Of a DNA stretch of 64,000 bases, positions 10,889-19,800 are shown piece by piece. How positions within the stretch are numbered: the stretch's first letter is position 1; every line of letters begins with the position of its first letter. A model generated the notes under the pieces. That model saw only the letters and a list, made by a program, of their open reading frames with translations, had not been told where the DNA came from and did not search any database. The DNA comes from Chlorobiaceae bacterium (lineage in GTDB: Bacteria > Bacteroidota > Chlorobiia > Chlorobiales > Chlorobiaceae), in NCBI GenBank assembly GCA_013334965.1, contig JAAXWO010000005.1, positions 62,001 through 126,000 on the forward strand, given 5' to 3'. The translations under genes were made by a program, and so were the position numbers.

Positions 10889-11743
10889 TCATAACCAGGG
10901 CATGCGTTCCACCTCGTCAAGGTTCACCGTTTTGGCCTTCGATGACCTCCTGAAATTGATGGTGAATCCGGGAGGATTGATGGCACGTTCATCATAGACT
11001 ACCCTGAGGCTTCTTGATCCTTCAATTTCATTATCCCGGAAAAGGGTCATGTCGATCTCTTTTGGTGTCATCAGCTGTCCGGTCCCTGCCGGCTGCATCT
11101 GGTAACCGGCGAACCGGAACTCCAGGGTTTTCCTGCCTGACATATCAAAGAAGGTGATTCCTTCAAGAACTTTCGAAGCCTGGTCTACGACCATCTCCTT
11201 CGTTCCGTTTCCAGACCTTACCGTAAACCCGACTTTCCCGCCTCCCTGCCGGACAGACTCAATGGCGCTGACAGGCTCTGGCATGTCGGCCATACCGAAA
11301 AGCGTCTCAGTCAACTGGCCGAACCCGGCCTTCACCCCGATGATCTTCCCGAGATTCTCGCCGTTATTCCTGCCAACCAGCATCCTGTTGTTCAGCATGT
11401 CGTGAACGAACAGGGAATCCGGACGGATCAGCATATCAGCCACAGGCCAACCGAAAATCCCGGCCGTTACGATAAGCCTGGCATCCCTCGATTTTTGAAC
11501 CTGAACCGTACAATAGGCCTTCGCGTTGCGATTCGGAGTCTTTAGGTAAAGATCGGCATACCCGTCCAGCGCATTGACCATGCCTGCGCCGACGGAGGCG
11601 TCGCGGTAAAGACGCTTCAGCTCCTGCGACAGTTCAACCCTGTTGGTCGCAGGAAGTGGCGCCCTGGTTATCGTTTCGACCTGAGCGCAACCTGCGACAG
11701 CAAGCAGCGCGAAGAGGCATAAACCCCAGATACCTTTTTTCAT
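10889..11743 (-). CDS. DUF4292-like lipoprotein
   Basis: 284 residues from the ATG at 11743, which has GGAG at a spacing of 6 bases; a GTG at 11758 is less likely. The signal sequence ends with the lipobox VAGC (Cys at about residue 19). The mature protein has the features of the Bacteroidetes/Chlorobi DUF4292 family (distantly LolA/LolB-like): a YADLYLKTP strand, a middle DSLFVHDMLNNRMLVG segment, and a C-terminal region ending in PPGFTINFRRSSKAKTVNL. Such proteins are predicted outer-membrane or periplasmic lipid-handling lipoproteins, but no function is proven. It stands alone, convergent with the right repeat array. Confidence 0.75.
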   Translation of the reverse strand: MKKGIWGLCLFALLAVAGCAQVETITRAPLPATNRVELSQELKRLYRDASVGAGMVNALDGYADLYLKTPNRNAKAYCTVQVQKSRDARLIVTAGIFGWPVADMLIRPDSLFVHDMLNNRMLVGRNNGENLGKIIGVKAGFGQLTETLFGMADMPEPVSAIESVRQGGGKVGFTVRSGNGTKEMVVDQASKVLEGITFFDMSGRKTLEFRFAGYQMQPAGTGQLMTPKEIDMTLFRDNEIEGSRSLRVVYDERAINPPGFTINFRRSSKAKTVNLDEVERMPWL

Positions 11744-11907
11744 CAACATCTCCTTCACTTATTCATCGTTTACACACAAGCCGTTCATCCCTCAACAAGC
11801 AATATCCATTTGCACAATCTACAGTCAAAATGGGGTTGATAGTTCTGAAATGTTATTTTAAATCAAATCCGACCTACATCAAACAAGAAACCTGGAGTTT
11901 TTGATTA

Positions 11908-15405: not shown

Positions 15406-15421
15406 AATCGAACGTTCGATT
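15406..15421. promoter_or_regulatory. Perfect 16-bp palindrome, candidate operator of the DUF2141-ydbH operon
   Basis: AATCGAACGTTCGATT lies 18 bases before the ATG of the DUF2141 gene. A TATATT at 15381-15386 could be a -10 element, placing the palindrome just past the transcription start, a usual site for repressors. No regulator gene is adjacent. Confidence 0.5.
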
Positions 15422-15439
15422 ACTCATTAAACAATTGAA

Positions 15440-15913
15440 ATGAAAAAAACGATTTCAACCCTTGGGTTGCTCACTGCACTTACAGGAACCGCCTTTGCCC
15501 AGGAAGATCTCGCCAATTCTGGTTGCATAACGGTAAACATCGATAACCTGCGCAGTTCGGACGGAAAAGTCGGTGTGGCCCTGTTCAAGGTTAAAGAGGG
15601 GTTCCCTGACAAAACAGAACGAGCCCTCGAAGGCAAAAGCATCGCAGCCGGAGACCATTGCATCGTCATGTTCGAAAACGTTCCTTATGGCACGTATGCA
15701 GTAAGCGTGCTGCATGACGAAAACGGCAATGGAAAAATGGATAAAACCTTCATCGGCATTCCAAAGGAGGGGTTCGGAACATCGAACAACCCGAAAATCA
15801 GAATGGGTCCGCCTTCGTTCTCGGAATCAAAGTTTGAACTCGGCAAAGGTGAGGTCACCCTCACGATCAGCATGAATTATCTGAATCAACGCTCAATCCA
15901 GAAACCGCAATGA
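15440..15913 (+). CDS. DUF2141 periplasmic protein
   Basis: 157 residues with a signal peptide cleaved after TGTAFAQ (about residue 21). The mature protein is a DUF2141 beta-sandwich: CITVNIDNLRSSDGKVGVAL, a middle ENVPYGTYAVSVLHDENGNGKMD (strand plus acidic loop that looks calcium-binding), then GIPKEGFGTSNN and a closing strand. The function of the family is unproven. Its stop overlaps the start of the ynbE-like gene (ATGA), so the two proteins are made together, linking this family to the envelope lipid-transport proteins that follow. It is the first gene of the unit 15440-18644. Confidence 0.85.
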   Translation: MKKTISTLGLLTALTGTAFAQEDLANSGCITVNIDNLRSSDGKVGVALFKVKEGFPDKTERALEGKSIAAGDHCIVMFENVPYGTYAVSVLHDENGNGKMDKTFIGIPKEGFGTSNNPKIRMGPPSFSESKFELGKGEVTLTISMNYLNQRSIQKPQ

Positions 15914-16134
15914 GCCGCAATAACCGATACAATAAAAAGGCCTTGGCACATACCCTGCCGGCAGCCGCAATGATCGCCGGTCTCGTGATGGGGGGATGCA
16001 GCCCTACCGTAAAGATCGAGGCTCCGGACAAACCGATCACGATCAATATGAACATCAAAATCGATCATGAAATCAGGGTCAAGGTGGACAAGGATCTCGA
16101 CTCTCTGATGGAAACCAAAAAAGGTCTATTCTGA
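15910..16134 (+). CDS. ynbE: YnbE-family outer-membrane lipoprotein
   Basis: 74 residues. The lipobox VMGGC gives a lipidated Cys near residue 30. The mature part carries the YnbE signature: PITINMNIKIDHEIRVKVD, then KDLDSLMETKKGLF at the end. In E. coli YnbE is a small outer-membrane lipoprotein that joins the C-terminus of the inner-membrane AsmA-like protein YdbH by strand addition, completing a bridge for phospholipid movement to the outer membrane. It overlaps the DUF2141 gene by 4 bases, and ydbL and ydbH follow directly, which supports the assignment strongly. Confidence 0.88.
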   Translation: MSRNNRYNKKALAHTLPAAAMIAGLVMGGCSPTVKIEAPDKPITINMNIKIDHEIRVKVDKDLDSLMETKKGLF

Positions 16135-16151
16135 CACGGAGAAAACAAACC

Positions 16152-16505
16152 ATGATAAGCATACTTACAAAAAGGGGACGTCGCCTGGCTGTTGCCGCCA
16201 TCGCATTTATGGCCTCTACCGTTTCATTGCCTGCGTTCGCGATCGACCTGGATAGCGCAAGAGCGAAAGGAGTCGTAGGCGAGACGGACAGCGGCTACCT
16301 TGCAGTTCCGCCAGAGGGCGGTACGGAAGGACAGGAACTGATCGGTACGGTCAACGCCCAGAGAAAAATCGAATACACAAAAGTCGCTTCGCAGAACAAA
16401 ATCACTCCTGATGCGGTCGGCCGGATGATGTTCGATAAAATATACCTGCGCATCCCTGCCGGAACATGGGTGCAGAAGGAGGGGAAATGGTTGAAGAAAC
16501 AGTAG
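16152..16505 (+). CDS. ydbL: YdbL-family periplasmic protein (DUF1318)
   Basis: 117 residues with a signal peptide (cleavage near SLPAFA). The mature protein has the DUF1318 pattern: IDLDSARAKGVVGETDSGYL, then VNAQRKIEYTKVASQNKI, and an ending with IPAGTWVQKEGKWLKK. In E. coli YdbL is a periplasmic chaperone-like factor that assists the YdbH-YnbE complex. The gene is 17 bases after ynbE and 30 before ydbH. The order here (ynbE-ydbL-ydbH) differs from the E. coli order (ydbH-ynbE-ydbL). Confidence 0.87.
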   Translation: MISILTKRGRRLAVAAIAFMASTVSLPAFAIDLDSARAKGVVGETDSGYLAVPPEGGTEGQELIGTVNAQRKIEYTKVASQNKITPDAVGRMMFDKIYLRIPAGTWVQKEGKWLKKQ

Positions 16506-16535
16506 CCCCAGGCCGTCGAAAAGCCCTGTAAGAAA

Positions 16536-18644
16536 GTGAAATGGCCACTTCGCATCCTGTTCATCCTGCTCCTGTCGGTTGTCGCAACCGCAGCAGGGGC
16601 ATGGTTTGCGTTCCCATGGTATGCGCAAGCGCTGATTGACCGGGCCATCGGTCAGGATATATCCCTGAAGGTACATGACCTTGGCCGTCCTGGAACAGAC
16701 GGCCTGAAATTCGGGCGTGTCGATGCAGTCTTTACCACGAAACCCGACACATGCACCGGCATCGCATCAACCTTCAGGGGCACAGTCTACAACGGCTCAA
16801 TCTCCTGGCGGCGCATTCCTGGAGCCGCTTCGTTTCTTGCTGGAGTAGAGCTCAAGGCTGATTCGCTTAAGGTTTTGCAGGAACCTGCCGGCATCACCCT
16901 CTCAGATCGAAATCCATCCATAAAGGCTCATGTTCAGATCGGCAGGAGATCATGGCTCATCCCGGATTTCGTCCCGGAATCCGTTGACTACAGCATCGAG
17001 GATGCCGTCGCTGAAAACGGGACCCTCTCGCTCGCCGGAGTCTCATACAAGGTCCATCTGACGAAAAACGGGAACTGGATTCAGCAACCCTCAAGATTCA
17101 AGGCCCTGTCGCTCTTTTCGGCCGGGGCAAAAACACCGCTCACCGGAATGGAGGCGACCGTCGGCATGGAGAGAACACCCGACAAACCCTGTGCGCTCAT
17201 CTTCTCGGACTGCTCCCTGTCAATGGCAGGCCTCAGGGCGTCAACTCCGCTCATCGAGTACTGCCTGAAAAAGCGGCGGACAAGCTTTACGCTGAACATC
17301 GATACCCTTCAGCTCGACAGTATGGCGGCAACAACCGGCCTCCAGAAGTCCAACCCAGGATTCACGGGCAACCTGAGCGGATCGATACCGATCGAATATG
17401 TCGACTCTACCGTTCGCATCAGAAACGGCATCGTCAAATCCGGGAAGGGTACCCGCCTGACATTCAGGAAAACCGATGGCAGACCCTCAGCATCCTTCGA
17501 CGCGTCGCAGGCCAGTAATGGCTCAGCGATGATCGGCAACCTCAATGCCGTCGTCTCCCTTGCAGGCAACGACAGGCAATCGACCTCCGTTACTCTCAAG
17601 GAATTTTCCATGAAGCTGTTCGGCGGATCGGTCACTGCTCTCAACGTTTCAAGCCCTGCTCCCGGCAGAAACTCATTTACACTCAGATTGACCGACCTGC
17701 CGATCCTGGATCGAATCCGCCTTCACGAGGACTTCAAGGCTTCGATGAAAGGCTCGATAAGCGGAACCGTTCCGATATCGATCGACACCAAGGGGATGAC
17801 GATCAGCAATGCCCACATAAACTCGAAAGGCGGCGGCACCATCCGCCAGTCTTTGCCTTTATCAAAATTGGACGCCGAATCCGCTTTTCGCCCGGCAACG
17901 CAAGAGGTTTCATGGAGTTTCAGCGAACCTTCGATTGTTCTGAACCTTGATTCCGGAGGAAAGACAAGCATCGGATTTCACCTTCGAAGCCTGGGTCGCA
18001 AGACCGGCGACGGCGAGCTGATGCTCACCAATCCCGAAGGGACGATCGGATTGATGGAACATCGCAACAACCCGTCGACGATTTCGCTCTCGAAGTTTTC
18101 ATCCGGTCTTATGAGCGGATCGCTCGCCATCGATCATGTCGACTATGACCTGAAGTCAAGGCATGCTGAAACCGTTCTGCTCCTCAACGGCATTCCATTG
18201 CAGAAGTTGCTTGAGCTTCAGGGCACGGAAAAAATCCATGCGACGGGCAACCTGCGCGGCCGGATACCGGTAGTCATGGACGGCGCCGGATTCCGGATCC
18301 CTGATGGCGGCATGAATGCGGAAAAGACCGGACAGATCATCTACTCATCAACTCCTGAAGAGAGATCCGTGGCCAACCCCGGGATGCGAATCACCTACGA
18401 AGCCCTCGGCAACTTCTTCTATTCCGAGCTGGTTTCATCCATCACCATGTCACCAGACGGAAACTCCCTTATCACGTTACAGATCAAAGGCCACAATCCC
18501 GACTTCCAGAACGGCCGACCGGTTAACCTCAACCTGAACATTGAACAGAACCTTCTGGAGCTGATGCGAAGCCTTTCAATCGCTTCGGGCATTGAGCAGC
18601 AGATCCTCGAAAAGGCGACCAGAGCCGGGAAGAAGCAGAAATAA
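16536..18644 (+). CDS. ydbH: YdbH-like AsmA-family intermembrane lipid-transport protein
   Basis: 702 residues from a GTG start, shorter than E. coli YdbH (879). One N-terminal inner-membrane helix (residues 6-28, LRILFILLLSVVATAAGAW) is followed by a long repetitive beta-strand region, as expected of the AsmA/TamB-like groove that carries lipids across the periplasm. The C-terminal part (about 600-690), with GNFFYSELVSSITMSPDGN and ending FQNGRPVNLNLNIEQNLLELM, matches the conserved YdbH C-terminus that meets YnbE. It is the last gene of the four-gene operon. Recognition depends on the neighbours as much as on sequence, because the middle is poorly conserved. Confidence 0.82.
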   Translation: MKWPLRILFILLLSVVATAAGAWFAFPWYAQALIDRAIGQDISLKVHDLGRPGTDGLKFGRVDAVFTTKPDTCTGIASTFRGTVYNGSISWRRIPGAASFLAGVELKADSLKVLQEPAGITLSDRNPSIKAHVQIGRRSWLIPDFVPESVDYSIEDAVAENGTLSLAGVSYKVHLTKNGNWIQQPSRFKALSLFSAGAKTPLTGMEATVGMERTPDKPCALIFSDCSLSMAGLRASTPLIEYCLKKRRTSFTLNIDTLQLDSMAATTGLQKSNPGFTGNLSGSIPIEYVDSTVRIRNGIVKSGKGTRLTFRKTDGRPSASFDASQASNGSAMIGNLNAVVSLAGNDRQSTSVTLKEFSMKLFGGSVTALNVSSPAPGRNSFTLRLTDLPILDRIRLHEDFKASMKGSISGTVPISIDTKGMTISNAHINSKGGGTIRQSLPLSKLDAESAFRPATQEVSWSFSEPSIVLNLDSGGKTSIGFHLRSLGRKTGDGELMLTNPEGTIGLMEHRNNPSTISLSKFSSGLMSGSLAIDHVDYDLKSRHAETVLLLNGIPLQKLLELQGTEKIHATGNLRGRIPVVMDGAGFRIPDGGMNAEKTGQIIYSSTPEERSVANPGMRITYEALGNFFYSELVSSITMSPDGNSLITLQIKGHNPDFQNGRPVNLNLNIEQNLLELMRSLSIASGIEQQILEKATRAGKKQK

Positions 18645-18867: not shown

Positions 18868-19800
18868 ATGACCAGTTTCATCACCACATATAGTGAACTT
18901 GAAGGCATAGAATTCCGGACACTCTACTCGAACGGCAAAACCGACGGATGCCTCGTCAGCAGTGAAAACATCATCCGCACACCATACGGGGACCTGACGC
19001 CTCAGTACGAAGCCGAAGATATGGGGCGCCGACCTGTCAAGCCGCTCTATTTCCATAAAAACGGTGCGATAAAATCGATGGCCCTGCAGACGCAGACCAG
19101 GGTCCGCACTCCGGTCGGGTGCATCCCCGCTGAACTGGTTACATTTCACGAATCAGAAAGCATCAAGCGAATCTTCCCGCTCGACGGCAAGCTCACCGGA
19201 TTCTGGACGGCAAAGAACGAGTTCGAGCTGGCAGAAGCCATAACGATCGAATCACCGCTGGGAACTCTCTGCGCCAAATTCATCGCTTTGCAGTTCTATG
19301 AAAGCGGTGCATTGAAAAGTGTGACATTATGGCCCGGCGAGTTCCTGTCGATCTCCACTCCTTCAGGGAAACTCAGGGTTCGTACAGGCATCGCATTCTA
19401 TGAAAACGGAAGGATACGGTCGCTTGAACCCGCAGGAGTCGTCAAGGTGGAGACTCCGGCAGGGACCATGACCGCCTACGACAATGATCCCCAGGGAATT
19501 CACGGCGACCTGAACTCGCTTGAATTCGCTCCCGACGGCTCGGTCATGGCCCTCAAAACCACTTCGGAGGAGATTCTCGTCATCGATCAATCTGGCAACA
19601 GTCACCGGTTCGCACCCGGCCTGAAGGACAATCCGTGCGGAACTGAGCGCAAGGTGATCATTCCGATGAAGGTGCGCTTCAGCTCAGGCAGGATCATATT
19701 CGACGATCATCAGGAGTCGTTCAACCTTGCTCAATGTTCAGTCACGGTCAGCCAGTACGACAGGAAAACCGACGATCCGGCCTACTCCTGCGCAGTCTGA
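18868..19800 (+). CDS. Internally repetitive protein with MORN/YwqK-like motifs, unknown function
   Basis: 310 residues, no signal peptide. Five repeats of about 40-50 residues alternate two motifs: a TPxG motif (IRTPYGDL, VRTPVGCI, IESPLGTL, ISTPSGKL, VETPAGTM) and an F-x-x-x-G-x-[IL]-[KR]-S motif (YFHKNGAIKSM, TFHESESIKRI, QFYESGALKSV, AFYENGRIRSL, EFAPDGSVMAL). The second resembles the MORN-variant repeats of YwqK-type proteins. The fold should be a repetitive beta-sheet. A candidate promoter lies about 100 bases upstream. The gene overlaps the convergent flavoprotein gene by 19 bases. I do not know its function. Confidence 0.75.
   Translation: MTSFITTYSELEGIEFRTLYSNGKTDGCLVSSENIIRTPYGDLTPQYEAEDMGRRPVKPLYFHKNGAIKSMALQTQTRVRTPVGCIPAELVTFHESESIKRIFPLDGKLTGFWTAKNEFELAEAITIESPLGTLCAKFIALQFYESGALKSVTLWPGEFLSISTPSGKLRVRTGIAFYENGRIRSLEPAGVVKVETPAGTMTAYDNDPQGIHGDLNSLEFAPDGSVMALKTTSEEILVIDQSGNSHRFAPGLKDNPCGTERKVIIPMKVRFSSGRIIFDDHQESFNLAQCSVTVSQYDRKTDDPAYSCAV

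Follow-up and report, generated by a model that had tools for sequence, protein, structure and literature searches.

A predicted YdbH–YnbE–YdbL-type lipid bridge with permuted gene order in Chlorobiaceae and its neighbour DUF2141, probably not a subunit

Known AsmA-like lipid bridges

In E. coli, YdbH and YnbE form an intermembrane bridge, as reported by Kumar, Davis and Ruiz 2024 and cited in PMC12977461. TamB and YhdP are other AsmA-like lipid bridges (PMC8593681); they have the general class in common with the YdbH bridge, but the families and the outer-membrane partners differ. The E. coli genes are ordered ydbH-ynbE-ydbL, and the 4-base overlap that precedes ynbE is formed with ydbH and strongly couples the translation of the two (PMC6728339). 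Documented here is a bridge of the YdbH-YnbE-YdbL kind that has a permuted gene order and is confined, within its phylum, to a single family of green sulfur bacteria, the Chlorobiaceae, where it is often found behind a gene of the DUF2141 family.

The locus

The window, which is the whole stretch of 64,000 nucleotides analysed, contains the following features (window coordinates).

15440..15913, + strand: DUF2141 protein gene (157 aa; Sec-type signal sequence; HDENGNGKMD loop; orthologue group A of Chlorobiaceae; PF09912)
15910..15913, + strand: ATGA overlap of the DUF2141 stop and the ynbE start, present in 7 of 27 linked loci
15910..16134, + strand: ynbE (74 aa; outer-membrane lipoprotein, lipobox VMGGC; PF13617)
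16152..16505, + strand: ydbL (117 aa; DUF1318 periplasmic chaperone-like protein; PF07027; match to PDB 28oj)
16536..18644, + strand: ydbH (702 aa; GTG start; AsmA-like bridge protein; PF11739)

An earlier note on this DNA had described the ATGA overlap, gaps of 17 and 30 bases before ydbL and ydbH, and no gene intervening, all of which is borne out by the open reading frames, four contiguous genes on the + strand. The start given in that note, 15406, lies 34 bases upstream of the DUF2141 ATG at 15440. The four-gene arrangement is not a product of chance, since the identical order recurs in 27 loci of the family (28 if one locus split between contig ends is counted).

Like the ydbH-ynbE-ydbL cluster of E. 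coli, the locus brings together the three families on one strand, with tight spacing and a 4-base overlap before ynbE. However, the order here is ynbE-ydbL-ydbH, a difference that the earlier note had rightly pointed out, the overlap is with DUF2141 rather than ydbH, YdbH has 702 residues as opposed to 879 in E. coli, and the lineage lies outside the Pseudomonadota. Elsewhere in the window, a lipoprotein gene on the - strand (10889-11758) has a weak match to LolB1 (NF053559, 19.5 bits; cut-off 50). Beyond ydbH, at 18868-19800, lies the gene for a 310-aa protein with short repeats and no clear family, which stays at the locus in both genera surveyed, with or without the trio.

Identity of the trio proteins

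All three products score far above the curated Pfam cut-offs: YnbE with 67.1 bits for PF13617 (cut-off 25.8), YdbL with 84.3 for PF07027 (cut-off 27) and YdbH with 274.5 for PF11739 (cut-off 26.3). The conserved core of YnbE can be aligned with its E. coli, Azospirillum and Sphingomonas counterparts, and the lipobox cysteine is invariant in all four. For YdbL there is a match to a solved structure whose chain bears the same name (PDB 28oj, E 1e-12). YdbH was modelled from 51 sequences; in the model, residues 3-24 form a membrane helix and the body is rich in beta-strands, the C-terminal part being confident and the middle uncertain. The Pfam matches, the 28oj match and this model confirm the YnbE-YdbL-YdbH module as genuine, and the locus has the marks of such a bridge, namely an AsmA-like YdbH with an N-terminal membrane helix, a lipoprotein cysteine in YnbE and a clustered YdbL (DUF1318).

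By homology, we infer that the trio is a known kind of intermembrane lipid bridge. The first helix of YdbH would anchor it in the inner membrane and lipid would move along its beta-strand groove. At the outer membrane the bridge would be completed by YnbE, with YdbL assisting in assembly. When the YdbH model was compared with the PDB, LptD-like matches were also returned; these were weak (TM under 0.2) and were discarded. The length of YdbH, presumed to reach across the periplasm, varies more than 2-fold, with open frames of about 400-620 residues in some Alphaproteobacteria (L130, L138, L141, L173, L176) and about 1150 residues in others (L187, L188, L137).

The DUF2141 protein

The first gene of the locus encodes a clear member of the DUF2141 family, with 131.7 bits for PF09912 (curated Pfam cut-off 24.4) and the HDENxNxxxD loop in alignment. 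The acidic, calcium-like loop to which attention had been drawn earlier is real (HDENGNGKMD) but not special to this copy, being a signature common to the DUF2141 family as a whole. By its sequence, this family-wide HDENxNxxxD-type loop resembles calcium-binding loops. A search of solved structures with the single sequence and with a 17-sequence profile found no credible relative. A model made from three sequences was poor (pLDDT 58), and with it Foldseek returned only weak beta-sandwich matches, including transthyretin-like ones, all with E above 0.001. No DUF2141 relatives were found in viral contigs; one match lies in a phage record.

Survey of the Chlorobiaceae

The family survey covered 61 genomes from two genera of Chlorobiaceae. 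DUF2141 was found in 60 of these and YnbE in 51, and the order ynbE-ydbL-ydbH holds in every family locus where the contig permits reading. DUF2141 is directly upstream of the trio in 27 loci, a count that is likely 28, since in G031 one contig ends at DUF2141 and another at the trio. L215, another Chlorobiaceae locus, has this four-gene order as well. The DUF2141 gene at the linked locus belongs to one orthologous clade, A (tree with 61 rows, support 90), and has a fixed position. This orthologue is present in 49 of the 51 trio genomes, the exceptions being G030 and G045, versus all ten of the trio-less genomes, including G038, which is 77% complete (Fisher p = 1).

Mapping the linkage onto the trio tree requires three changes of state. 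The trio sits elsewhere as a unit, with DUF2141 left behind, in one clade of 12 genomes and one of 10, and in G030, by a single event on the trio tree, DUF2141 alone was lost and the trio is still in place. The relocated trios occupy several different contexts. In the window's own genus, DUF2141 is still at the old site after the departure of the trio, and about 275 bases separate it from the 310-aa gene that now follows. Both genera probably inherited the linked state from their common ancestor. Upstream of the linked locus, many members of both genera have methyltransferase, nucleotidase and thioredoxin-like genes, and the 310-aa gene and a gene for an FAD enzyme lie downstream in both. Wherever the contig of a linked locus is long enough, the 310-aa gene comes next, and thus the adjacency of DUF2141 and ynbE is no better conserved than adjacency to genes without an evident link.

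In four loci (L089, L091, L099, L105), the relocated trio adjoins genes that look by eye like arsenic-resistance genes (ACR3- and ArsC-like), suggesting movement with a resistance cassette. One genome, G270 (L123), has two YnbE copies on separate contigs.

Is DUF2141 part of the bridge?

The earlier note had proposed that DUF2141 is a fourth component in this lineage; as a dedicated part of the YdbH bridge it could be, for example, a periplasmic lipid loader or stabiliser. Adjacency in both genera and in 28 of the 51 trio genomes, with operon spacing and a linked state that looks ancestral, is what such a component would be expected to leave. However, a subunit should be present or absent together with its bridge and should move with it, and DUF2141 does neither: the orthologue is retained by every genome that lacks the trio, the trio persists without it in two genomes, and two clades have relocated the trio and left DUF2141 in place. 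Outside the family the trio is common without any DUF2141, with none found by whole-genome searches in 31 of 50 trio-bearing genomes. The survey of DUF2141 beside ynbE that the earlier note had suggested as a check therefore goes against its own proposal, and we regard a dedicated fourth component as very unlikely. For a tightly overlapping neighbour suspected of being a subunit, the comparison gives a clean answer, namely that DUF2141 is not needed.

The reading we prefer, and hold to be highly probable, is that the trio is a lipid bridge of the YdbH-YnbE kind and that DUF2141 is a separate secreted envelope protein which shares its transcript but is not a subunit. Since the gene is an old neighbour that genomes retain with the trio or without it, it probably does not encode a part of the bridge. 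DUF2141 would then be a beta-rich secreted protein belonging to the core gene set of the family. Three points can be raised against treating it as a passenger: the linkage survives in more than half of the trio genomes, which is longer than a neutral neighbour might be expected to last, the protein of an unlinked gene can still act on the bridge, and operon-like spacing persists in 27 loci, so that co-expression with the bridge was either tolerated or favoured. DUF2141 is presumably co-transcribed with the trio. This genome also encodes one TamB, a possible reason why ten genomes can do without the trio.

The ATGA overlap and translation

The 4-base overlap of DUF2141 and ynbE is ordinary spacing and is not conserved. 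It is restricted to the minority of linked loci given above; in the remaining linked loci, 6 to 52 bases separate the DUF2141 stop from the earliest possible ynbE start. Overlaps are also formed by paralogues of DUF2141 within the family: in G017, G021 and G025 they share 4 bases with aspS (named by eye), and in G018 the overlap is with a carotenoid-isomerase-like gene. Taken together with the overlap of ydbH and ynbE in E. coli, this most simply means that ynbE is accustomed to translation behind a neighbour, and that DUF2141 took that place in Chlorobiaceae. By analogy with ydbH in E. coli, ribosomes that reach the DUF2141 stop codon may pass on to ynbE.

Origin of the module

For comparison, 80 YnbE loci were collected by scanning named genomes. 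Outside the Chlorobiaceae, every readable trio had the order ydbH-ynbE-ydbL (78 loci, including E. coli and plasmid records), and ynbE-ydbL-ydbH is unique to Chlorobiaceae among the loci compared. Only one trio outside the family, L179, has DUF2141 within 6 kb; it was rejected as an independent linkage because opposite-strand genes lie in between. Among 296 genomes sampled from 139 genera of the phylum, YnbE was found in two genera, both Chlorobiaceae, and was absent from the 137 others, as it was from the remaining families of the order; within the class it is likewise confined to Chlorobiaceae. In a quick tree of the three trio proteins, the Chlorobiaceae form one clade (support 100) on a long stem, placed in the same half of the tree as Gammaproteobacteria, Zetaproteobacteria and Nitrospira.

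The single deep clade on a long stem could reflect vertical inheritance from an ancestor of the phylum, with loss everywhere except in Chlorobiaceae. This is an improbable history, as the absence of the trio from so many sampled genera and from the rest of the order would require many losses. The distribution within the phylum and the unique gene order make one ancient acquisition followed by rearrangement likelier than inheritance and, on these sequence comparisons, the economical account. The stem lineage of the Chlorobiaceae would have acquired the module once, the likely donor having been gammaproteobacterium- or Nitrospira-like, and the module would have been rearranged to ynbE-ydbL-ydbH immediately downstream of a DUF2141 gene that was already present. 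The differing gene order had been taken earlier to indicate an old, separately arranged module rather than a recent transfer. The module is indeed old within the family, but an ancient transfer is favoured by its absence from 137 genera and by its placement in the tree, and we do not accept a permuted gene order as an argument against transfer as such.

DUF2141 and lipid genes

DUF2141 genes can be found in a variety of neighbourhoods. The second DUF2141 of this genome (L112, 8292-10362, G000:C6) lies just behind a CrtISO/CrtD-like FAD enzyme, which matches TIGR02730 with 163.7 bits, below the cut-off of 586.9, and the same pair occurs in G010, G016, G018, G026 and G028. In Sphingomonadales, DUF2141 copies linked to crtG have been described (PMC5989583) that have the Pfam family and the loop signature in common with the window copy; these adjoin carotenoid genes, whereas the window copy adjoins ynbE. 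In the case of five alphaproteobacterial loci (L285, L292, L294, L295, L136), DUF2141 adjoins LptF/LptG-type permeases and genes that are lipid-related or N-acyltransferase-like, a layout that resembles the sphingolipid cluster of PMC11324152, to which Caulobacter CC_1157 belongs.

Such neighbours hint at a lipid theme around an uncharacterised family and raise the idea that DUF2141 is a general periplasmic protein that handles lipids or isoprenoids for several envelope lipid routes, the YdbH bridge included. In favour of this are the CrtISO/CrtD-like enzyme beside it in this genome and its relatives, the crtG genes of Sphingomonadales, crtI and carotenoid oxygenase genes beside it on plasmids, and, in Alphaproteobacteria, the nearby LptF/LptG-type permeases and phospholipid or fatty-acid enzymes. 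However, other copies adjoin aspS, glpK, moaA/MOSC and cobalamin genes (named by eye), the lipid neighbours are a lead only, and the family offers neither a solved relative nor a confident model. We consider a general lipid-handling role unlikely. Similarly doubtful is the suggestion that DUF2141 is a general chaperone or carrier in the periplasm which supplies several lipid routes of the outer membrane with very apolar lipids (carotenoids, sphingolipids, phospholipids). If it were such a carrier, the Chlorobiaceae locus would represent DUF2141 co-expressed with a lipid bridge and not a fixed part of one.
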